Assembly: GCA_022818135.1 (NCBI GenBank) | Contig: JAFMSR010000008.1 | Location: 33,312,655 to 33,376,654, forward strand | Direction: 5' to 3' | DNA: 64,000 nt | From: Saxidomus purpurata | Taxonomy: Eukaryota > Mollusca > Bivalvia > Venerida > Veneridae | Shown here: in pieces, positions 4,022-63,700 of the stretch | How the letters are laid out: the number at the start of each line of letters is the position of its first letter | How positions within the stretch are numbered: position 1 is the stretch's first letter | Translations under genes and position numbers: made by a program | Notes under the pieces: model-generated | What the model saw: only the letters and a program-made list of their open reading frames with translations | The model's database searches: none | What the model was told of the DNA's origin: nothing

Positions 4022-4157
4022 TGTCATAGGGTGAGAAAAATGTGCAGCCTGACCGGGACTCGAACCCGTGACCCTTCGCTTACAGGGCGAATGCTGAGCT
4101 ATCCGGCCGCCTACATATTTTCTCTCCTTTTTCATAATGAAGTCCGTAACCGTGACA
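4022..4157 (-). mobile_element. Solo LTR of the tRNA-bearing TRIM family
   Basis: Read on the minus strand it starts TGTCACGGTTACGGA and ends CACCCTATGACA, colinear over 136 bases with the two LTRs at 29216 and 29475. It contains the same tRNA-like core (minus strand of 4047-4108) with anticodon stem TTCGC/GCGAA and B-box GGTTCGAGTCC, but the D-loop is shortened. There is no second LTR or internal region, so it is best read as a solo LTR left by recombination, or as a single-unit insertion. Flanks do not show a clean target duplication (ATAAC versus TAATC). A predicted protein over this site would be an artefact of the antisense tRNA-like stretch. Confidence 0.75.
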
Positions 4158-4626: not shown

Positions 4627-5126
4627 NNNNNNNNNNNNNNNNNNNNNNNNNNNNNNNNNNNNNNNNNNNNNNNNNNNNNNNNNNNNNNNNNNNNNNNNNN
4701 NNNNNNNNNNNNNNNNNNNNNNNNNNNNNNNNNNNNNNNNNNNNNNNNNNNNNNNNNNNNNNNNNNNNNNNNNNNNNNNNNNNNNNNNNNNNNNNNNNNN
4801 NNNNNNNNNNNNNNNNNNNNNNNNNNNNNNNNNNNNNNNNNNNNNNNNNNNNNNNNNNNNNNNNNNNNNNNNNNNNNNNNNNNNNNNNNNNNNNNNNNNN
4901 NNNNNNNNNNNNNNNNNNNNNNNNNNNNNNNNNNNNNNNNNNNNNNNNNNNNNNNNNNNNNNNNNNNNNNNNNNNNNNNNNNNNNNNNNNNNNNNNNNNN
5001 NNNNNNNNNNNNNNNNNNNNNNNNNNNNNNNNNNNNNNNNNNNNNNNNNNNNNNNNNNNNNNNNNNNNNNNNNNNNNNNNNNNNNNNNNNNNNNNNNNNN
5101 NNNNNNNNNNNNNNNNNNNNNNNNNN
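4627..5126. other. Assembly gap, 500 N
   Basis: Exactly 500 undetermined bases, a placeholder size. The satellite on its left side suggests that the missing sequence is, at least partly, more satellite. ORFs spanning it are meaningless. Confidence 0.99.
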
Positions 5127-6148: not shown

Positions 6149-7400
6149 TACAAGACAAGACAAGACAAGACAACTCTTTATTAGTATAATCAGGTTACAC
6201 ATGAACATTTTCAATTAATGCATGGGTAACAACAAGATCAAATTTTTCTCAATAGTACAAAGTGTGGTGGACAAAAAATAATTATTTTGATGGTATTAAC
6301 CAATGTTATAGGTGTTGCAATTTTATGATCCGGTTTCTACGGGGGAAACTTATAACATATAATATCTCATTACCATTTTTATTGGGGTGTATCGTAATCA
6401 ATTTACTATAACATGGATAAATTAACCCGTGAAAATTCATTTACTCATGCACGAGGAAATCGTGTTCGTATTATCATGATTCTAACAATAGCAGTTTTAA
6501 CGGGGGGGAACTTTATCAATTGGCGTCGCGGGTAGTAATCTGCGATGTAAATATCAACAAATAGTCGGCAGGTCGTTACAATAGTGACTTACTGGATATT
6601 ATTTACAGTTTTGAACACGGTAATATTTTATTTTCTAAGCCGTTGAATAGTTATTTGGTGATTTTCAGTATATACGCTATTAATTGTTCAAGGTTTCGTA
6701 GCAAGTAGATGTTATCCGTGTTTAGAATTTTCTTAAATGACAGAATATTTGGGTGCTTGATTATGTCTGGGGGGAGTAATTTCTCACGGAGTGATTTAAA
6801 CCTTTTACAGCATAGAAGTGTGTGAAATTCGTCCCCCAAGTCTGAGAAGCAGAACGTACAGTTTCTGTCATTATATTCTTGATTATTTTTCCAGCGACCT
6901 GTTTCTATTGGGAGTTTGTGATTCGCTGTTCTAAATTTAAATAGTGTTAGTCCTTGTTGTCGTGGTAAAATTTTCAGGTAATTTTCAAAGCTTATTGTTT
7001 CTTTAAATAGTTTATATGTTCTTCCTTTTGAGGAGTTTTCTAAATTGTTCGACCATTGTTGATAGAATTGATTGATTAGTGTTTCTTTTATTAAGTTTGC
7101 ACAGTGTCTGAAATCTAGATTCCTTTGATTTAACCATAAGTATGAGCAACCAGTATTATTAAGAATGTCATAAATATGTTTCAACCAGCGGTAATTTTTA
7201 AATTCACGCGAGAAAAGCATTGCTTCGTAGCATAGATATGCCAGTTTACTGTTTTTACCGAGCAGAAGCCTGTTCCAAAAAGCTATCATTCGTGATTTAA
7301 TTGTCAATTCAATGGGGTATCGACCTAATTCTGCGTATAACATGTACATTGGGGTGCTTTTTCGTGTTACAAAACTCTTGACTGAACTTAGGTCCTATTT
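6149..7400 (-). pseudogene. 5'-truncated LINE, C-terminal part of ORF2
   Basis: The minus-strand ORF 6651-7349 reads as the end of a non-LTR retrotransposon polyprotein: an ELGRYPIELTIKSRMIAFW segment near its start, then, about 60 residues before the end, a zinc-knuckle-like CTFCFSDLGDEFHTLLCC (C-x2-C-x8-H-x4-C). This arrangement follows the reverse transcriptase in many invertebrate LINEs. Sense upstream sequence (to about 7400) adds FVTRKSTP before the first Met, so the true ORF was longer. The 3' end is marked by an (ACAAG)n run at 6150-6171, that is a (CTTGT)n tail on the element strand. Endonuclease and RT domains are missing, consistent with 5' truncation on insertion. Clade not determinable by eye. 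Confidence 0.75.
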
Positions 7401-26415: not shown

Positions 26416-27486
26416 AATGAAGGTGACTCGAATAGGTTGTGACCTATCTTCCTCGAGGCCTTCAAAAACAATAACAACATTCATACAAATGAACAGGCAT
26501 TCACACAAACATACATCAGACAATGATTAAATGAATAGAATAAAATAAAACTGTCTATCTATTCAAATTGCTTTCAAGACGAAAAGAGCAAAACCTGTTA
26601 AGGGCTGCTACTAAGGAGATAAGTTTTAAGTTTTGAACGAAATTGCGTTAACTTATCAGCACTTCGTATTTTAAATGGTAGACTGTTCCACACGTGTGCT
26701 GCAAAGTATTGAAAAGTACTTTCTGAAAATCGTGACTTCACAAAAGGTTGAGCTATATCATTTTTACATGAAGATCTGAGCTCATAATGTGTTTTATTAG
26801 CACATGTTGCTAAAATATCTTTCATGTACAATGGGGATAAATTATGAAGTGTTTTATACACTAGTATACCAATATGATATTTATTTCTTGCGCAAAAGGG
26901 TAGCCATTTTAGTTCTTTAAATAATGGAGCAGATGGGTAATCGTAATTCTTATCGAGTATCATTCTTGCAGCACGCTTTTGAATATTCAAAATTTTGTTT
27001 AGGTGCTTCATGCTACTGTTAGACCATACTACGCTTCCATAATCAAAAATTGGTAGAACATATGCATTAAAATAAAGGATTCGCGTATCTAGGCTTAGAT
27101 CTTAGATATTTGGCATGTAGCATTGGCTAGTGTACCTCCACCAAGTTTGTTCAAATTATGACCCCCGGGTCAAAATTGACCCCGCACCGGGGGTCACTAA
27201 GTTTTACATAGGCTTATATAGGGAAAACTTTAAAAATCTTTTTCTCTGAAACCACAAGGCCTAGAGCATAGATAATTGGCATGTAGCATTGCCTAGTAGA
27301 CCTCTTCAAAGTTTGTTCAGATTATGCCCCTGGGGTCAAAATTGACCTTGCCTGGGGGGGATCATTTGTTTTACAAAGGCGTATATAGGAAAACTTATTT
27401 GGTATATAACATTATCTAGTGATCTTCCACCAGGCAAGTGGACTTGTACCAAGGTGAGCGATATAGGGCCATCTTGGCCCTCTTGT
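25430..27486 (+). mobile_element. HINE-like element, family C copy 4
   Basis: Starts TAGCTCACCTGGCACAAAGT (palindrome with GTGCCAGAGTGAGCT) only about seven bases after the end of A2. Leader is a clean (GTCC)n run at about 25498-25532. Core units with CCACAAGGCCTAGAGCTTAG continue to the GGGCCATCTTGGCCC hairpin and TCTTGT. Interrupted by a LINE fragment at 26382-27090. Confidence 0.8.
26382..27090 (-). pseudogene. 5'-truncated LINE fragment with 7-bp target duplication
   Basis: Inserted in C4 and flanked by AGGCTTA (26375-26381 and 27091-27097). On the minus strand it ends with a (TTA)n tail (26382-26403). The minus ORF (26598-27011) reads LNKILNIQKRAARMILDKNY and later FAAHVWNSLP; upstream of its first Met the frame stays open and reads VLPIFDYGSVVWSNSS, the usual C-terminal RT region of CR1/jockey-like LINEs. 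The 5' end is cut within that domain, as expected for incomplete reverse transcription. A predicted gene here would be a transposon fragment. Confidence 0.85.
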
Positions 27487-29046: not shown

Positions 29047-29263
29047 TATACCCCCGAAATGAAGTTAAAGGGGGTTTTATAGGAGTCACCCAGTGGTAGG
29101 ATGGTCGGTCCGTCGGTCGGTTGGTTGGGTGGGCGGTCAGTTGCATTTTTCTTGTCGGGAGCATAACTTGAAAACTTCTAGTTGGAATTCAATATAACTT
29201 CATACAATGGTCAGGTGTCACGGTTCGGACTTAGTTCACAATTGGGGAGAAAAATGTGTAGGC

Positions 29264-29334
29264 GGCCGGATAGCTCAGTCGGTAGACTTCGCCCTGTAAG
29301 CGAAGGGTCCCGGGTTCAAGCCCCGGTCTGGCTG
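29264..29334 (+). tRNA. tRNA-like sequence in 5' LTR (degenerate)
   Basis: Acceptor arms GGCCGGA and TCTGGCT, D-stem GCTC, anticodon stem TTCGC/GCGAA with loop CCTGTAA (anticodon position TGT), T-arm CCGGG-TTCAAGC-CCCGG. The D-stem 3' strand GAGC is damaged (GTAGACTTCGC instead of GTAGAGCATTCGC). Part of the LTR, so not annotated as a functional tRNA gene. Confidence 0.6.
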
Positions 29335-29524
29335 CACATTTTTCTCACCCTGTGACATTTGGCGCCCATCGGGGGACTAACGGCATTACAAGATCTGTCT
29401 CCGACATCTGTAATTGCTTAATTTGATAGTACTCTCTGATATTCGAGGACGAATTTCAACATATTGGGGAAGTATGTCACGGTTTCGGAGTTAATTGTGA
29501 AAAAAGGGGAGAACATGTGTAGGC

Positions 29525-29597
29525 GGCTGGATAGCTCAGTCGGTAGAGCATTCGCCCTGTAAGCGAAAGGCCCCGGGTTCGAGCCCCGGTCTGGCTG
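29525..29597 (+). tRNA. tRNA-like sequence in 3' LTR (complete cloverleaf)
   Basis: All four arms pair: GGCTGGA/TCTGGCT (with G-U pairs), GCTC/GAGC, TTCGC/GCGAA, CCGGG/CCCGG; A-box TAGCTCAGTCGGTAGAGC and B-box GGTTCGAGCCC are intact. Anticodon TGT would be threonine, but base 33 is C instead of the universal U, arguing against use in translation. More likely an internal Pol III-type promoter module or SINE-derived segment carried by the LTR. Confidence 0.65.
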
Positions 29598-30726
29598 CAC
29601 ATTTTTCTCACCCTGTGACACAGGCACATTGAGAGGAAGTGCAGTGCACATGAACCATAACTCCATCTTGACTCATTACAGAGTTATTGCCCTTTGTTAC
29701 TTTTCCTTGTCCGGAGCATAACTTGAAAACTACTCGTGGGAATTCAATACAACTTCATACAATGGTCAAGCACAATAAGAGGAAGTGCAGTGCACATGAA
29801 CCATAACTCTATCTTGACTCATTACAGAGTTATTGCCCTTTGTTACTTTTCCGTGTCCGGAGCATACTTGAAAACTTCTAGTTGGAATTCAGTACAACTT
29901 CATACAGTGGTCTAGCACATTGAGAGGAAGTGCAGTGCACAAGAACCATAAATCCATCTTGACTCATTACAGAGTTATTGCCCTTTGTTACTTTTCCTTG
30001 TCCGGAGCATAACTTGAAAACTACTCGTGGGAATTCAATACAACTTCATACAATGGTCAAGCACAATAAGAGGAAGTGCAGTGCACAGGAACTATAACTC
30101 TATCTTGACTCATTACAGAGTTATTGCCCTTTGTTACCTTTCCTTGTCCGCAGCATGTCTTGAAAACTTCTTGTTGGAATTCAATACAACTTCATACAAT
30201 GGTCTAGCACAATGAGAGGAAGTGCAGTGTACAAGAACCATAACTCTATCTTGATTATTTACAGAGTTATTGCCCTTTGTTACTTTTCCTTGTCTGCAGC
30301 ATAACTTGAAAACTACTGGTTTGAATTCAATACAACTTCATACAATGGTCAAGTACATTGAGAGGAAGTGCAGTGCTCAGGAACCATAACTATCTTGACT
30401 CATTACAGAGTTATTGCCCATTTTTACTTTTCCTTGTCGCAGAGCATAACTTGAAAACTACTGGTTGGAATGCAATACTTCATACAATGGTCCAGCACAA
30501 GGAGAGGGAGTGCAGTGTACAAGAACCATAACTCTATCTTGACTAATTACAGAGTTATTGCCAAGAACAATATCTCTATTTTAATTTTTTATTGCAAGGT
30601 ATTCTGTTTCTACAAACTTCCTCAGTTTATTAAGCAGTCTTTCAGGGGTATTAATCACATTTAGTGATAGCTCTAGTTATTATTATTATCATTATTATTA
30701 TAGTAAAATTTTATCTCTCTCTGCAG

Positions 30727-33593: not shown

Positions 33594-34465
33594 AAACGAA
33601 GTTAACGGGGGTATATAGGAGTCACCCGGTGGTTGGTTGGTCAGTCAGGCGGGCGGTCCGTTGCATTTTCCTTGTCCGGAGCATAACTTGAAAACTGCTA
33701 GTTGGAATTCAATACAACTTCATTCAATGGTCAAGCACATTGAGAGGAAGTGCAGTGCACAAGAACCATAGCTCAATCTTGACTAATTACAGAGTTATTG
33801 CCCTTTGTGACTTTTCTTTGTCCGGAGCATAACTTGAAAACTACTAGCACAATGAAAGGAAGTGCAATGTACAAGGACCATAACTCTACCTTGACTCATT
33901 ACAGAGTTATTGCCTTTGTTACTTTTCCTTGTCCGGAGCATAACTTGAAAACTACTGGTTTGAATTCAATACAACTTCAGACAATGGTCAAGCAAAATAG
34001 GAGGAAGTGCAGTGCACAGGAACCATAACTCTAACTTGAGTAATTACAGAGTTATTGCGCTTTGTTACTTTTCCTTGTCCGGAGCATAACTTGAAAACTA
34101 CTGATTGGAATTCAATACAACTTCATACAATGGTCAAGCACAATGAGAGAAATTACAGTGTACAAGAACCATAACTCTTTCTTTAGTAATTACAGAGTTA
34201 TTGCCCATTTTAATTTTCCTTGTCGCAGAGCATAACTTGAAAACTACTTGTTGGAATTCAATACAACTTCATACAATGGTCCAGCACAATGAGAGGAAGT
34301 GCAGTGTACAAGAACCATAACCCTATGTTGACTTATTACAGAGTTATTGCCAATGACAATATCTCTATTTTAGTTTTTTTTGCAAGGTATTCTGTTACTA
34401 CGAACTTCCTCCGTTTATAAAGCAGTCTTTTGGGGGTATTAATCACATTTAGTGATAGGTCTAGT
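33594..34465 (+). mobile_element. HINE-like element, family D copy 3
   Basis: TATACCCCCAAAACGAAGTT palindrome with GGGGGTATATAGGAGTCAC, GGTTGGTCAGTCAGGCGGGC leader, five core units and the 3' hairpin ATCACATTTAGTGAT followed by AGGTCTAGT. Flanked by T on both sides. Ends match D2 closely. Confidence 0.85.
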
Positions 34466-42271: not shown

Positions 42272-44687
42272 TATCCCCCCCGCCAAAGGTGAAGGGGATA
42301 TTAGAAATGCCCTTCGTCCGGCCGTCCGTCTGTCCATCCGTCCGTCCGTCCGTGCGTCCGTCCCAATTTTGTCCGAAGCATAACTCCAAAAGTACTTGAG
42401 CGATTTTCTTCAAACTTCATACACTGACAGAGCACATTGGGAGGAAGTGCAGTGTGTAAGAAAAATAACTCTACCTTGCCTACTTTTAGAGTTATTCCCC
42501 TTTTATCAGATTTACTTGAAAAACTTTGTCCGGAGCATAACTCCAAAAGTACTTGAGGGATTTTCTTCAAACTTAATACACTGACATAGCACATTGGTAG
42601 GAAGTGCAGTGTGCAAGAACAATAACTCTACCTTGCCTACTTTTAAAGTTATTCCCCTTTATCAGATTTACTCTAAAAGTTTTGTCCGGAGCATAACTCC
42701 AAAAGTACTTGAGGGATTTACTTCAAACTTAATACACTGACATAGCACATTGGTAGGAAGTGCAGTGTGCAAGAACAATAACTCTACCTTGCCTACTTTT
42801 AGGATATTCCCCTTTATCAGATTTACTTGTCCGAAGCATAACTCCAAAAGTACTTGAGGGATTTTCTTCAAACTTAATACACTGACATAGCACATTGGTA
42901 GGAAGTGCAGTGTGCAAGAACAATAACTCTACCTTGCCTACTTTTAGAGTTATTCCCCTTTATCAGATTTACTTTAAAAGTTTTGTCCAGAGCATAACTC
43001 CAAAAGTACTTGAGGGATTTACTTCAAACTTAATACACTGACATAGCACATTGGTAGGAAGTGCAGTGTGCAAGAACAATAACTCTACCTTGCCTACTTT
43101 TAGAGTTATTCCCCTTTATCAGATTTACTTGTCCGAAGCATAACTCCAAAAGTACTTGAGGGATTTTCTTCAAACTTAATACACTGACATAGCACATTGG
43201 TAGGAAGTGCATTGTGCAAGAACAATAACTCTACCTTGCCTACTTTTAGAGTTATTCCCCTTTATCAGATTTACTTGTCCGAAGCATAACTCCAAAAGTA
43301 CTTGAGGGATTTTCTTCAAACTTAATACACTGACATAGCACATTGGTAGGAAGTGCAGTGTGCAAGAACAATAACTCTACCTTGCCTACTTTTAGAGTTA
43401 TTCCCCTTTATCAGATTTACTTTAAAAGTTTTGTCCAGAGCATAACTCCAAAAGTACTTGAGGGATTTACTTCAAACTTAATACACTGACATAGCACATT
43501 GGTAGGAAGTGCAGTGTGCAAGAACAATAACTCTACCTTGCCTACTTTTAGAGTTATTCCCCTTTATCAGATTTACTTGTCCGAAGCATAACTCCAAAAG
43601 TACTTGAGGGATTTTCTTCAAACTTAATACACTGACATAGCACATTGGTAGGAAGTGCATTGTGCAAGAACAATAACTCTACCTTGCCTACTTTTAGAGT
43701 TATTCCCCTTTATCAGATTTACTTGTCCGAAGCATAACTCCAAAAGTACTTGAGGGATTTTCTTCAAACTTAATACACTGACATAGCACATTGGTAGGAA
43801 GTGCAGTGTGCAAGAACAATAACTCTACCTTGCCTACTTTTAGAGTTATTCCCCTTTATCAGATTTACTTTAAAAGTTTTGTCCAGAGCATAACTCCAAA
43901 AGTACTTGAGGGATTTACTTCAAACTTAATACACTGACATAGCACATTGGTAGGAAGTGCAGTGTGCAAGAACAATAACTCTACCTTCCCTACTTTTAGA
44001 GTTATTCCCCTTTATCAGATTTACTTGTCCGAAGCATAACTCCAAAAGTACTTGAGGGATTTTCTTCAAACTTAATACACTGACATAGCACATTGGTAGG
44101 AAGTGCATTGTGCAAGAACAATAACTCTACCTTGCCTACTTTTAGAGTTATTCCCCTTTATAAGATTTTCTTTAAAAGTTTTGTCCAGAGCATAACTCCA
44201 AAAGTACTTGAGGGATTTTCTACAAACTTAATACACTGACATAGCACATTGGTAGGAAGTGCAGTGTGTAAGAACAATAACTCTACGTTGCCTACTTTTA
44301 GAGTTACTCCCCTTTATCAGATTTACTTTAAAAGTTTTGTCCAGAGCATAACTCCAAAAGTACTCGAGAGATTTTCTTCAAACTTAATACACTGACATAG
44401 CACATTGGTAGGAAGTGCAGTGTGCAAGAACAATAACTCTACCTTGTCTACTTTTAGTCAAATAGAAAAATATCATACCTATACTGATAATGAACATTAA
44501 TATAATTTTGCAAACCTTCTCTTCATTGCCTTATTCTTTTTCCACTTACTTGAAAACTGTACTCAGCATGACCATAACTATACGGCTTTTTAAGGATTTC
44601 CTCTCACCAAGTAAAATGTACGAAAGTACAACCTTCAGGTAACTTTTTCCTGGCGGGGGGATTAACCATGTGTAACATGGCTCTTGT
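42272..44687 (+). mobile_element. HINE-like element, family F
   Basis: Starts TATCCCCCCCGCCAAAGGTG (palindrome with GGGGATATTA), leader CCGTCCGTCTGTCCATCC. Sixteen or so ~148-bp core units (GCATAACTCCAAAAGTACTT, CACTGACATAGCACATTGGT, TTATTCCCCTTTATCAGATT). In the middle, blocks of three units repeat with a 448-bp period (identical ORFs at 43030, 43478 and 43926). The 3' end is the hairpin CCATGTGTAACATGG followed by CTCTTGT. All ORFs here are read-through of the core. Confidence 0.85.
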
Positions 44688-45140: not shown

Positions 45141-45640
45141 NNNNNNNNNNNNNNNNNNNNNNNNNNNNNNNNNNNNNNNNNNNNNNNNNNNNNNNNNNNN
45201 NNNNNNNNNNNNNNNNNNNNNNNNNNNNNNNNNNNNNNNNNNNNNNNNNNNNNNNNNNNNNNNNNNNNNNNNNNNNNNNNNNNNNNNNNNNNNNNNNNNN
45301 NNNNNNNNNNNNNNNNNNNNNNNNNNNNNNNNNNNNNNNNNNNNNNNNNNNNNNNNNNNNNNNNNNNNNNNNNNNNNNNNNNNNNNNNNNNNNNNNNNNN
45401 NNNNNNNNNNNNNNNNNNNNNNNNNNNNNNNNNNNNNNNNNNNNNNNNNNNNNNNNNNNNNNNNNNNNNNNNNNNNNNNNNNNNNNNNNNNNNNNNNNNN
45501 NNNNNNNNNNNNNNNNNNNNNNNNNNNNNNNNNNNNNNNNNNNNNNNNNNNNNNNNNNNNNNNNNNNNNNNNNNNNNNNNNNNNNNNNNNNNNNNNNNNN
45601 NNNNNNNNNNNNNNNNNNNNNNNNNNNNNNNNNNNNNNNN
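45141..45640. other. Assembly gap, 500 N
   Basis: Same placeholder length as gap 1, with the 44-bp satellite on its right edge. Confidence 0.99.
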
Positions 45641-46165: not shown

Positions 46166-46904
46166 CCAACTTCACAGACTTGAACGCTTTGTGGATCTTT
46201 CGTGAAAGCAATAGGAACTGGGTCTTATTTGAATTGAAATCAGCCGACTCTGATATTTTCTGCAAATCTGTATTAAGCGATACAGCAGCTAAGATCGGAT
46301 GATCAACGATTATACAGAGACTAGTGTCGTCAGCAATGAAACGAATCGTGGAACCAATGCCAAGTACATCATCATTTATATAAAAAATAAAGAGAAGAGG
46401 ACCAAGAATCAAACCCTAAGGAACACCTGCAGTTACAGAGACAATTTTTGGAGAAGATCAAGATAAAACTACCCTTTGCGTTCTACCGGATAGGTAATCC
46501 TGAAACCAATCTAATAGTACACCTGTTTTCCGATGCTCTTAGTTCATGCAATAAGCCAATAATCCTCGGTGTCATACGCGGTCGAACGCCTTGTGATATG
46601 TCGCAGAAAACTGCTCTATTTCTTTGCCTTCATCGAGTGCTTGGCAGAAGGTATTATAGATGGAAACAAGTTAATTGGTCGTGGAGTCGTTTGGAACGAA
46701 CCCAGATTGGAGAGAAGTGATAGTGTTGTGTGTTTGAAAAAAATTGAAGACATGTGTACGTATAATTTTTTCTAGAAATTTGCTAATGGTGCTGAGAAGC
46801 GATATTGGTCTGTAATTCGATACAACGTAAGGATCGTTTTTCTTATATACAGCGCAAACATGAGCTAGTTTCCAATGTGATGGTACCTTTCCGAGGTTAA
46901 AAGA
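46166..46904 (-). pseudogene. LINE reverse-transcriptase remnant, downstream part
   Basis: Read on the minus strand it passes through the RT palm in the right order: GKVPSHWKLAHV, NYRPISLLSTISKFLEKI, LQSGFVPND, LVSIYNTFCQALDEGKE, a KAFDRV-like segment, DYLSGRTQRVV, VTAGVP*G (the conserved Gln is now a stop), LGPLLFIFYIND and ADDTSL (usual FADD box, here IADD). Several stops and frameshifts make it dead. The order matches jockey/CR1-type LINEs. It is cut on the C-terminal side by the 44-bp satellite and on the N-terminal side by the 7.35-kb foldback element; the missing piece lies at 54276-54420. Confidence 0.85.
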
Positions 46905-46927
46905 TGTTTTGAATATGTGTAGGAAGT

Positions 46928-47698
46928 TAGCAGTAGCAGTGAGCAGTAGCAGTGAGCAGTAGCTAAATTATAAAATGTGAAGTTGGCAGTAGCAGTAACA
47001 CAGCAGTAACAGTAGCTTGGCAGTAGCAGTAGCTTAGCAGTAGCAGTAGCAAAATCATAAAACGTGAAGTTGGCAGTAGCAGTAGCTTAGCAGTAGCAGT
47101 AGCACAACAGTAGCAGTAGCTGAGCAGTAGCAGTAGCTTAGCAGTAGCAGTAGCACAGCAGTAGCAGTAGCTTAGCAGTAGCAGTAGCACAGCAGTAGCA
47201 GTAGCTTAGCAGTAGCAGTAGCTTAGCAGTAGCAGTAGCTGAGCAGTAGCAGTAGCTTAGCAGTAGCAGTAGCACAGCAGTAGCAGTAGCTTAGCAGTAG
47301 CAGTAGCACAGCAGTAGCAGTAGCTGAGCAGTAGCAGTAGCTTAGCAGTAGCAGTAGCACAGCAGTAGCAGTAGCTTAGCAGTAGCAGTAGCACAGCAGT
47401 AGCAGTAGCAGTAGCTGAGCAGTAGCAGTAGCAGTAGCACAGCAGTAGCAGTAGCAGTAGCTCAACAGTAGCAGTAGCACAGCAGTAGCAGTAGCTCAGC
47501 AGTAGCAGTAGCACAACAGTAGCAGTAGCTCAGCAGTAGCAGTAGAGTAGCAGTAGCAGTAGCAGTAGCAGTAGCAGTAGCTTAGCAGTAGCAGTAGCAG
47601 TAGCAAAGCAGTAGCAGTAGCAGTAGCAGTAGCAGTAGCAGTAGCAGTAGCACAGCAGTAGCAGTAGCAGTAGCAGTAGCTTAGCAGCAGTAGTAGCT
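46928..47698 (+). repeat. Left arm minisatellite, 17-bp unit
   Basis: Basic unit GCAGTAGCAGTAGCTTA with variants ending CACA, CTGA or CTCA, and local expansion of the 6-bp GCAGTA core near the inner side. The leucine/tyrosine/cysteine-rich minus ORFs 46963-47190 and 47257-47514 are translations of the repeat and not genes. Confidence 0.95.
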
Positions 47699-57720: not shown

Positions 57721-60700
57721 ATGACTAAAAAGGTAAAGGTATATTTCTTTTCTAATGCATTTAATGTAATTAAATTATGACCATCGAATCTTTAAAAGAA
57801 CAATAGTGCATATGTAATGTAATTTACTTCTTCTTTCGTTTTCAGGCTAAAGAACCTAAATGTAGTCATAAAGTGAATCAAACAAGAGAAAGTGTCAACT
57901 GGAAAGAACTATTATGGGGTTCGTCTGCTATTGTGTTAATAAACTTATAACCTTGTCGTAATATGTTTACCTGTTATGTTTGGCTATGATTTAAGAATAT
58001 CAATTACTTTTTGTCATTTGTGCGGTAAGTATCGCGCAAATCAATAAGCCGCATTTCAAAACAGTATCTAAATAGAATTTATTATTCATAGTGAACTTAA
58101 CAATAATAACTTACCTTTCAGGTGTTTTGTCATCAGTCAGATGTCAAACCATTGAAATACTCAGCAAAGTTAATGGTTGTTACTGATGTTTCGTCGAATT
58201 AGGTCAAGTTACTTTAGGTAGTTCATTAGATACGTTCTGATACAAATTCATAAAATGTCTACATGTGTGCAGTTGCAATGCATAAACCGGCACTCTCAAA
58301 GAATTCTAGTAACCCCGTACCGTTATACAAAGAATCTCTGAAGTATCCTGTCTTCAGATACTTATTCAAGGAGACACGCTATAAGGTATTACGTAGAAAT
58401 CTTTATTGCAGCAAATACAATTGATTGGTTCAATGTATACATAAGCACATAATTATATAGCAATAAACATGTTTTGTCTTTTGGTACTTTCAGACACCTT
58501 TTGCAGTTTGGCAAAGCTACTGGATATGTTCCCGAGTAGTATCATTTGGCTAAGTGTCGTTGTATATCGGTAGGTAAAGTATGTTTATATTTCACGGCAA
58601 CTTTAAAGAACATACTGACCCTATATGATTGCAACTTATCCGATATACAATTTAACTACTTGGGAGTAGGAAAAAAGAATATATATGATTATTGTATATT
58701 TTATAATATAATGATGGATTATATCCCAGTTAACTCACTGTCTATCAAACATTTCTACTCGGGTAACTTAAAAATGTATACGAGTGTAATAAATGCCGGA
58801 AACCATACGATGATGATGTCGTTAAACTTTTGTGTCATGTTTGTTATGCTTTCCTGTGACATTTCCCGCTCATTGAAAAAATTTCAACAAAAATAGAGTT
58901 TGAGACATAAAATAAATAGAAGTAGTGTTGGTATCGATGTAATATCACGATAATTTCACTCGTGAACACCAAACAAAAGTAGCTATTTTCACTCGTGGAT
59001 GCGTACATGTAACTCGTGAAACTATCACTTTTGGTGCCCACTCGGTGAAATTATAACGTGATATAACATCGAAACCAACAATTATACTCTATTCAATGTG
59101 TATTATAACTTGTCATTACACGTTGTTTCCAGATCTGTAGTTGGAAGATGGCCCTTATTTCTAAAAGAATTCGACACACTAAAAAAAAGCAATCATTCTA
59201 AAGAAACTGAAATACAACTATTAAAGAGTTTGATAGAAAGAAAAGACAACGATAAAGAGAAGGAAGTCCGACAATCAAAGAAGTTGATAGAAAGTAAAAA
59301 CAAAGAAAGTAGATTAAGCAAAGACAGGGAAATTGAACATTTAAAGAATGTGATAGAAAGTAAAGACAAAGAAAGCGAATTAAAATCAAAAATGATCAAG
59401 TCTCTGGAAGACGAAGTGAATCAGGTGAACCACAACTTGAAAACAAAGGTAACTGAAAATGCAGAACTCGAGGCGGAGAAGAAAGAGGCACTTAGAAGGT
59501 ATGTCCAGTTATGTTTTATATCAGACATTTATAATTGAGTTCTTCAGCTTATAAAAAGAAACACGTGGCAGTGACATCAATATATATGCCGAACCGTTTA
59601 GAAAGAAAGTAGCAAAATTAATAACTTGATTATCGTGAATATGTAACACATACCTCCTTTTAGAATGTATATAAAGCAGAAAGCACAAACTGCAAACCTT
59701 AAATTCGTAATTAAGCACTTTATCAAGATTGAAAATGTAAACAAACTAAACAAGGTATAAGATTGTTATTGTAAGGTTATCTAAGATATTTAATGCAACT
59801 CAACGATAACCTCATAATAACCGTATAATTGGCAGTTTGTTGAGTTTGCAAGAGAAACTCATGAGTATTAACAATAGTTTATTAAAATCAAGTGAAATAT
59901 GAAAATAGCAAAGCTTTGTTACACCGGATACAGCTCCTTTGGATAACAGCTCCCCGGGGAGCTGTATTCGCTGCACATTAACGAATACAGCTCCCTTGAT
60001 GTAGCGGAGCTGTATTCGAACCAAAGCATATGCACATTCGAATAAAGCTCCCTATGTTTGATCATACAGATGATCAAACGGATTAATAACAGAAGTCTGA
60101 GTACGTGGTGATGTGTCTTTTGGCCAAATTAATTTATGTCTCCACTTTAGTAAGAAGCTTTGCCATTCCGAAAACCTTTAAGTGCATGTCCAAATTTTAG
60201 TTCGAAAGCTTAGGTCCGTCTGTCCGAACATATGTCTTTTGTCCTATCCTGTATGTTGTCTTATCATTCCGTCTGTCGGGTCTTACGCCCTGGTGTGAAT
60301 GTGCTTCATTCCGTCAACAATTTATTTATGAAATGAAGTACAAAACCAGTTAAACTGCCGCCTTATGTGCAACACTCATGTATGAAAAATGTAGATTTAT
60401 TGAAAGAAATCAACTCTTCAATGCCAACAAAAAAGTCATTAAACCTCTAAGTTTCGTTCAATCGTCCGTCCAACACGGACGGACTAAAAGACAAACATCC
60501 CAGGGCTAAGTACTGCATCCTGAATAGCGGGATGGATCCTTATTATTCTATAATAAATTCTGTGCCGCAATGATACGCCTTAAATATACGTCTATGTTTC
60601 ATCTGGTCACTGCGGAGCTCTATTCGAAAAAAAGGTACAAGAACCCCGAATACAGCTCCCATTTGATTAGGGGAGCTGTATTCGTTAATGCACGCCGAAT

Positions 60701-63700
60701 ACAGCTCTCCGGGGAGCTGTATTCGTTAATGTGCACCGGATACAGCTCTCCGGGGAGCTGTATTCGTTAATGAGCACCGGATACAGCTCTCCGGGGAGAT
60801 GTATTCGTTAATGAGCACCGAATACAGCTCTCCGGGGAGCTGTATTCGAAAGGAGCTGTATCCGGTGTTACAAAGCTTCAAGGGCGAATATTTTTGTCCA
60901 GGGATAAGTAAATATAATTTGATAGTAATTGTATGAGTTCAATGTAATGCATAAAGTAATTTGAGTCAAGTGTTGCCTTAAAAAAGTTTTGCAAAAGACC
61001 ATTCTTCGTTGTTTCTTTTCATAAAAAAAGCAATGATTCTAAAGAAACTGAAATACAACAATTAAAGAGTTTGATAGAAAGAAAAGACAAAGAAAGCAGA
61101 GAAGATAAAGAAAAGGAAGTACGACAATTAAAGAAGTTGATAGAAAGTAAAAACAAAGAAAGTAGATTAAGCAAAGATAGGGAAATTCAACATTTAAAGA
61201 ATGTGATAGAAAGTAAAGACAAAGAAAGCGGATTAAAATCAAAAATGATCAAGTCTCTGGAAGACGAAGTGAATCAGGTGAACCACAACTTGAAAACAAA
61301 GGTAACTGAAAATGCAGAACTCGAGGCGGAGAAGAAAGAGGCACTTAGAAGGTATGTCCAGTTATGTTTTATATCAGACATTTATAATTGAGTTCATCAG
61401 CTTATAAAAAGAAACACGTGGCAGTGACATCAATATATATGCCGAACTGTTTAGAAAGAAAGTAGCAAAATTAATAACTTGATTATCGTGAATATGTAAC
61501 ACATACCTCCTTTTAGAATGTATATAAAGCAGAAAGCACAAACTGCAAACTTGAAATTCGTAATTAAGCACTTTATCAAGATTGAAACTGTAAACAAACT
61601 AAACAAGGTATGAGTTTGTTATTGTTACTGATAAATGAGAAGGTTATCTAAGATATTTAATGCAACTCATCGATAACCTCATAACAACCGTATAATTGGC
61701 AGTTTGTTGAGTTTGCAAGAGAAACTCATGAGTATTAACAAAAGTTTATTAAAATCAAGTGAAATATGAAAATAGCAAAGCTTCAAGGGCGATTATTTTT
61801 GTCCAGTGATAAGTAAATATAATTTGATAGTAATTGTTATGAGTTCAATGTAATGCATAAAGTGATTTGAGTCAAGTGTTGCCTGAAAATAGTTTTGCAA
61901 AATACAATTCTTCGTTGTCTCTTTCCATAACGAATAGTGATGTCTGTCAATAACATTTGAAAACAAAAATACTTGACACATACATTTTTATCTCTCAGAT
62001 TAAGTGAAGAGGTTTCTATCAAACTGCGAGATAACAATCCTAACGTCGTGGACTTAAAAGACCCATGCCGACCGACGAAACTGGCCGAGATGTTCAGCGA
62101 GTTATACGATAACGAATGGACTTCCGCCTATTTCGTGCTTGCAGAGACTTTCTCGGAGAAATATGCAATCTCCATACTTCTGCATGCAGTTATGGTAATG
62201 TCTTAATCATATGAACACTGTCGTTTCTAATGGTCTTTCAAAGAGGCGTAGGCAGTCCTAACAGTCGTTTACAGTACCGGTACAAGTAAACCATTATTCT
62301 GTAATATATTAAATATCTTCAGTCAAGTTTGTAAATGTTTGAATCTAATTTTATACATGTTCACTGAATCCTAATGCACTAGGTTTCTTAGAAATATTTT
62401 AAACATTTTCTAGTCTGCGTATGAAGTCAGTAAGGGAAGAGCTGAGGAATCCTGGCAAATTCTAAGAGACTGGTTTCTAGATGAGGTATTTCGGTTTATC
62501 TAGAGCAATTATATATCATATGTAAGATACATTGTATTCTAACACAAGCGGCTGCTTTTCCTATATAAACATATAGGGAAAAGCCTGTATTTTATTTTAC
62601 GATAAAATACAGCACGTTTTTCCAAGGACGACGTGCGGTAAATGACGTAACGACGTGACGTATGTAAACAAGCGCGTCCAATCGTATCTCGCGTTTTAAG
62701 GTTACAATGGTGTACTACTACGCGTTAAATAAAGTTCGGGATTGTTTTCAAAGAAAATAACATGTTAGAATCGAAATAATAAATTGTTCCCTATATTTTA
62801 TCGTTGAATAAAATATAGTCAGTCATTTGCATGCGAATAATTAAATCACTCGTGCTACGCACTCGTGATTTAATTACTACGCATCCAAATTCCTGACTAT
62901 ATTTTATTCAACGATAAAATACAGGGAGGCATTTATTATTTCTTAAATAAAGTAAACTTATTTTATATTTCTGATCGATGTTTGTCTTACTTCAATAATG
63001 TTTAAAGTGTTTCACTTGTATTTTCAACGATTAAAGAAGTAATGACATATGATTAAGTTTTATAATTCTAAAAACCGATGTCAAGTTCTGAAATAGGGGG
63101 AAATCACAATTTTGTGTACTGAATAATGATTCAACCAAATTCAAACGCAATTTACTTTCTGTTATGTCGTCCAGAGTCTTCCTGGTGCAGAGCTAACGAC
63201 GAAATGGTTAAAAGACAGTCGTAAAATCAATGTCAAGAGAAAAGTGTCGGAAATAGGGACGGTATGTATTAACACCAATTTAGAAATGTCAGTATTACTT
63301 GTAATTCACATTTCAAGCTGTTTAATTGTCTACACAAAAGATTGTAAGCACATGCTTACGATGTCTGAATCAAATTGTTGCTGTTAGGTTATCAAATATA
63401 TAGTCTAACCTCTCAGAACAACACCTCTGAAGAGCAAAAACCTCTCTACAAAGACAGATGTTTTATTTCCCAAACCAGATATATATCTGAACAAATTAAC
63501 TTCCCCAGAGCAACAACCTCTCCATACCAAACAAAAATTTGATATTCCCTTTGGTGTTGTTGTGGAGAGGTTGTACTGTATATCAAATCAACGGTTTCCT
63601 TTTTTAACGTGATTTCAAACAGAAGAATTCTTATATTGGCATTAACATATATATATATATATAATGAATAAACTGTTTACGTTTTGAACAGGATTTCAAA

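Follow-up and report, generated by a model that had tools for sequence, protein, structure and literature searches.

The locus at positions 29216-29620 of the 64-kb stretch of Saxidomus purpurata DNA analysed here (the window) raises the question of what kind of retroelement carries a tRNA-like unit in each of its LTRs, and how such an element would be transcribed and copied. The initial annotation had described a 405-bp element with LTRs, a primer-binding-like site, a purine tract, a CAGG duplication and no coding sequence, and the coordinates, the blastn comparison and the list of open reading frames (ORFs) bear this out; the element is complete. The coordinates are exact. On the plus strand, the 405 bp divide into a 5' LTR of 142 bp (29216-29357, TGTCAC...GTGACA), a non-coding interior of 117 bp (29358-29474) and a 3' LTR of 146 bp (29475-29620). 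Both LTRs start with TGTCACGG and end with GTGACA, and they are 87.8% identical (blastn, E ~1e-45). No stop-to-stop ORF of at least 85 aa was found to overlap the element.

This copy is probably old, judging from its LTRs, because 18 of the 142 bases in their alignment are mismatched and four further columns are gapped. The differences are spread unevenly, with 12 in the 45 positions upstream of the tRNA-like unit, 6 in the 71 positions inside it and none in the 26 positions after it. Upstream positions (12 of 45) thus contrast with those elsewhere (6 of 97; P 0.002, for a boundary picked after viewing the alignment). Plain decay does not predict such unevenness, which counts against our best explanation, and gene conversion or chance may be responsible.

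The element is a genuine insertion with a 4-bp duplication, because its flanks, joined with one CAGG, rebuild a tandem-repeat unit. CAGG stands on the left (29212-29215) and on the right (29621-29624), and retaining a single copy yields an intact unit of 146 bp, that is, the restored empty site. Across the joined junction, nine further tandem units in the window can be aligned, each over 214-217 nt and with 88.0-94.9% identity. Examples are alignments of 94.9% with one gap, and of 93.1% and 90.7% without gaps; further alignments in the window are shorter and more distant, down to ~69%. Related tandem arrays with units of ~146-156 bp occur at 29624-30562, 33846-34351 and 42367-44457, and the element adjoins the edge of the first of them.

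Each LTR of the element contains a tRNA-like unit on the plus strand, at 29264-29335 in the 5' LTR and at 29525-29598 in the 3' LTR. ARAGORN calls both tRNA-Thr (TGT). Against a gathering score of 29, the Rfam tRNA model gives 40.5 bits for the 5' unit and 63.3 bits for the 3' unit, the latter covering model positions 1-71 of 71. The 5' unit is two bases shorter, with nearby differences, in the D arm. Within the units, on the plus strand, A boxes (TAGCTCAGTCGG in both LTRs, at 29271-29282 and 29532-29543) and B boxes (GTTCAAGCC at 29314-29322 in the 5' LTR and GTTCGAGCC at 29577-29585 in the 3' LTR) match the consensus patterns. By themselves these patterns are weak, with 56 matches for the A box and 8 for the B box on the plus strand of the window. 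ARAGORN, Rfam and the box matches together bear out the earlier claim that each LTR contains such a unit with both boxes.

The 3' copy had also been said to fold fully and to have C at position 33. The C33 and a full-length fit by ARAGORN and Rfam hold, but when each unit is folded by itself to minimum energy, the 3' unit does not form a cloverleaf and the 5' unit takes a cloverleaf-like shape. The 3' unit nonetheless fits the tRNA model better than the 5' unit. Nor is C33 limited to the 3' LTR, as first noted, since the anticodon loop CCTGTAA, with C at position 33, is common to all three LTR copies in the window (the third is described below). Among five human tRNAs compared with it, the 3' unit is nearest to two tRNA-Lys, sharing 55 identities with either, followed by tRNA-Thr-TGT with 51. 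A role of the tRNA-like unit in translation is unlikely, because C33 is present in all three copies and the body lies nearer to tRNA-Lys than the TGT anticodon implies. Selection for translation had been considered unlikely in the initial annotation for the 3' copy, and the tRNA-Lys-like body and C33 in three of three copies agree with that view.

Sequences resembling the unit also occur in phages and viruses. Phage records with matches number 77; among the 20 listed, all match the 3' tRNA-like unit only, and 18 of these 20 match beneath an annotated tRNA-Lys. The pattern of a tRNA-Thr unit with C33 was found in no GTDB genome contig, a microbial collection that says little about animals, and in five IMG/VR viral contigs, in which ARAGORN calls the matches tRNA-Thr and the 60-70 flanking bases contain no LTR-like ends. 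These viral tRNA-Thr(TGT) genes, with C replacing the near-universal U at position 33, lie at L001:10257-10330, L002:13343-13416, L003:8354-8428, L004:8297-8369 and L005:800-873, and those of L001 and L005 are alike. The LTR-end pattern gave no match in GTDB genome contigs or in viral contigs, and the tRNA-unit pattern none in viral contigs, collections of microbes and viruses that have little bearing on animals.

A primer-binding-site-like (PBS-like) stretch, TGGCGCCC... (29360-29378, plus strand), begins two bases past the 5' LTR, and TGGCGCC, at the same place, is found nowhere else in the window on either strand. Of the 19 bases of this PBS-like stretch, 16 match the 3' end of human tRNA-Lys-CTT, 14 match Lys-TTT, 13 Arg-TCG, 10 Thr-TGT and 9 Ala-AGC, in a comparison with five human tRNA ends that may differ from those of the host. 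It counts against our best explanation that the match was judged on these five human tRNAs and that the unrelated tRNA-Arg-TCG also reaches 13. The purine tract (PPT), GGGGAAGT (29466-29473, plus strand), was read from the sequence; its last base is T, and it lies one base ahead of the 3' LTR. Within the 64-kb window, neither a helper (a Gypsy element that shares the PBS region) nor a second full-length copy was found, which is a further point against our best explanation.

The third LTR of this family, at 4022-4157 on the minus strand, stands alone as a solo LTR; it is 82-84% identical to the LTRs of the element and reaches both LTR termini. The window thus holds three LTRs of the family at two loci, ~25 kb apart. 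The tRNA-like unit of the solo LTR (4045-4108, minus strand) scores 36.3 bits with Rfam; a 9-bp deletion in its D arm breaks the A box, and the B box is kept. The flanks, TAAC and TAAT, form an imperfect 4-bp duplication in which three of four bases agree. A solo LTR is the expected product of recombination between LTRs, and a SINE would carry a tail. No SINE tail was found at 4022-4157, so at the only other locus of the window the tRNA-like unit is not dispersed alone with a tail, the pattern that would have spoken for SINEs.

Other features of the window include likely remnants of retrotransposon ORFs on the minus strand, at 6651-7394, 26598-27101 and 46671-46967. The last of these has an RVT_1 match under the Pfam cut-off (23.6 of 29.6 bits), a protein search with 6651-7349 gave 56 relatives, RVT_1 being present in two, and 26598-27101 appears by look to be related to reverse transcriptases and has no Pfam match. 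Only three of the 56 relatives are named, and a single one gives an organism, a symbiont of lucinid clams, although that entry may be DNA of the host clam. Two plus-strand ORFs (59062-59538 and 60960-61391, ~1.9 kb start to start) are by eye closely similar and coiled-coil-like, and may stem from duplication of an exon or a gene. At 4627-5126 and 45141-45640 the sequence consists of N, exactly 500 in each case; both stretches adjoin 44-bp repeat arrays and are probably assembly gaps and perhaps collapsed arrays.

The initial annotation knew of no named bivalve family like this, which is not borne out, as TRIMs with tRNA-like LTRs from bivalves and other eukaryotes had already been named Helenus by Kojima in 2024 (PMC10886601). 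That study reports 51 Helenus families in Pteriomorphia bivalves and predicts that seven bivalve families are able to encode tRNA-Thr. Helenus families have 4-bp duplications in animals, tRNA-Lys among their primers and total lengths of 311-1263 bp; Gypsy elements that share the PBS region are their likely helpers, and insertion of a SINE into an LTR is their likely origin (PMC10886601). The element described here is alike in that both of its LTRs contain a tRNA-like unit and the two boxes, and in having a PBS and a PPT, no coding sequence, a length (405 bp) within the published range, and solo LTRs. Its 4-bp target-site duplication, CAGG on both sides, is that of animal families, and tRNA-Thr-like units together with tRNA-Lys primers are shared with bivalve families. 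No structural difference from the published description was found. On these sequence features, set against the published description, the element is best explained as a Helenus-type TRIM. The earlier view that the locus is a TRIM whose two LTRs each include a tRNA-like unit is supported by the LTR pair, the units, the PBS-like and PPT-like sites and the CAGG duplication.

Literature since 2023 that combines Helenus with tRNA and LTR comprises Kojima 2024 and a butterfly genome. A loose search for Helenus added, among the matches listed, only a meeting report and an insect checklist, and titles and abstract starts among the matches listed contained no other report of a tRNA in an LTR. The meeting report, from 2026, repeats Helenus in the section concerned (PMC12859917), and a term search of a 2023 survey of bivalve transposons returned no mention of Helenus in the text covered (PMC10294476).

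Among better known systems, Cassandra of plants is likewise a TRIM with a promoter derived from a Pol III gene in its LTRs, according to the relevant passages of PMC10853983 and PMC7215508. As described there, it differs in that its LTRs carry 5S rRNA, in place of the tRNA-like unit found here. No 5S rRNA unit was found in the window, for which Rfam at gathering scores gives tRNA only. In the account included in PMC10886601, Cassandra RNA runs from the 5S unit in the 5' LTR to the one in the 3' LTR and has an 18-bp duplication at either end; in the present element, by comparison with that account, the sole plus-strand T runs follow the tRNA-like units. The biv-TRIM elements (Satovic 2019, PMC6934838) are also TRIMs of bivalves. 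In the portion of that description considered here, they have terminal repeats (TDRs) of 202-218 bp and an interior of 77-80 bp, in contrast to LTRs of 142 and 146 bp and an interior of 117 bp in our element. Their PPT is mostly GGGGAGA and they lack a clear PBS, whereas our element has GGGGAAGT and a PBS-like site, and the same portion mentions no tRNA unit in the repeats.

In each of the three LTRs, a TTTTT run comes within a few bases of the end of the tRNA-like unit. Those of the element (29339-29343 in the 5' LTR and 29602-29606 in the 3' LTR, plus strand) resemble Pol III terminators and are its only plus-strand T runs. By simple Pol III rules, a T5 run downstream of the promoter ends most transcripts. 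Since the 5' LTR, too, has its T5 run after the promoter, that promoter would yield mostly a short RNA of ~100 nt, and full-length RNA would be made only by read-through; this counts against our best explanation. The sequence that separates the two T5 runs is itself free of T4 runs, as are just 76 of 1245 stretches of equal length taken, with overlaps, from the window. We did not accept this lack as evidence of selection for Pol III, since 43% of 5000 shuffles also had none.

The 5' LTR also contains an inverted repeat whose 18-nt 5' arm (29244-29261, plus strand) is 89% complementary to the 3' arm (29332-29349, plus strand); their pairing would extend the acceptor stem. The arms pair better than in any of 1000 shuffles for the 5' LTR; of 1000 shuffles each, 10 do as well for the 3' LTR and 152 for the solo LTR. 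The three copies are not independent. The extended stem is therefore clear in the 5' LTR, fair in the 3' LTR and not significant in the solo LTR. Fold z-scores of the units with their flanks are -5.3, -3.4 and -2.4, in the same order. By term search, the main text of PMC10886601 has no discussion of a T5 run or an extended stem for Helenus: terminator appears once, for Cassandra, stem appears only in the references, and termination, TTTT, hairpin and inverted are absent.

Pol III likely transcribes the element from the A and B boxes of the 5' LTR. Transcription would begin just upstream of the tRNA-like unit in the 5' LTR and stop at the T5 run in the 3' LTR; R, the repeat region, would then consist of the tRNA-like unit together with its stem. 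Packaging and reverse transcription would be carried out in trans by a Ty3/Gypsy helper, with tRNA-Lys as the primer, and integration would produce the 4-bp duplication. We are confident in the Helenus identity together with copying in trans. The Pol III transcription step, taken alone, seems probable on the basis of the boxes and runs described above; for Helenus it is, by the paper's own statement, without experimental validation (PMC10886601). A more specific version of this proposal, which we put forward only tentatively and think unlikely to hold in full, is that R in this Helenus lineage is the tRNA-like unit, seated on an extended stem with the Pol III stop in its 3' arm. Every LTR, the solo LTR included, would then be a complete small Pol III gene, the stem-sealed tRNA-like RNA would resist tRNA processing, and the element would move only through rare read-through of the terminator.

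A different polymerase could serve the same structure. If full-length RNA of a Helenus-type element were made by Pol II, the tRNA-like unit would give short Pol III by-product RNAs that stop at T5, and the T5 run directly past the unit in all three LTR copies fits this. We find it doubtful, if still a serious candidate, and the weight that we give it overlaps with that of the main reading, as it shares the Helenus identity and differs in the polymerase only. Against it, neither a poly(A) signal nor a TATA box was found in the 405-bp element, as AATAAA, ATTAAA and the TATA box pattern are absent from both strands. The A and B boxes, moreover, are retained in both LTRs although the LTRs have diverged to the extent given above.

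The remaining alternatives deny that the two repeats are LTRs of one element. TRNA-derived SINEs (SINE2) are short and non-coding, with a tRNA-like Pol III promoter; they consist of one tRNA head, a body and a 3' tail, are mobilised by LINEs, and are without LTRs, PBS or PPT. The present element resembles them in its small size, its lack of coding sequence and its tRNA-like promoter of Pol III type, and differs in having LTRs and no tail. As molluscs are generally rich in tRNA-derived SINEs, two of them inserted near each other might by chance mimic an LTR pair. This is not supported, because both units lie inside repeats that share TGTCAC...GTGACA ends, PBS-like and PPT-like sites stand between them, one CAGG duplication surrounds the entire element, and the solo LTR shows the third copy to be a full LTR that has no tail. 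The restored empty site rules the SINE pair out at 29216-29620, and we regard it as very improbable. A tandem duplication of two real tRNA genes would account for the two ARAGORN calls of tRNA-Thr and for the 63.3 bits of one unit, but it is harder still to credit. All copies have C33, the D arms of two of the three are damaged, the body has more identities with tRNA-Lys than with tRNA-Thr (55 vs 51, for human tRNAs), and the LTR ends and the target duplication lie outside the units.

With the Helenus-type reading preferred, the locus offers a clean single-locus example of a recently named TRIM group with a Pol III-type promoter, complete with a restored empty site and a solo LTR nearby. It also calls for caution in annotation, since tRNA gene finders label such LTRs as genes for tRNA-Thr. 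With a terminator-like run in both of its LTRs, the element moreover raises a concrete and testable question, namely how full-length RNA is made by elements of this kind.
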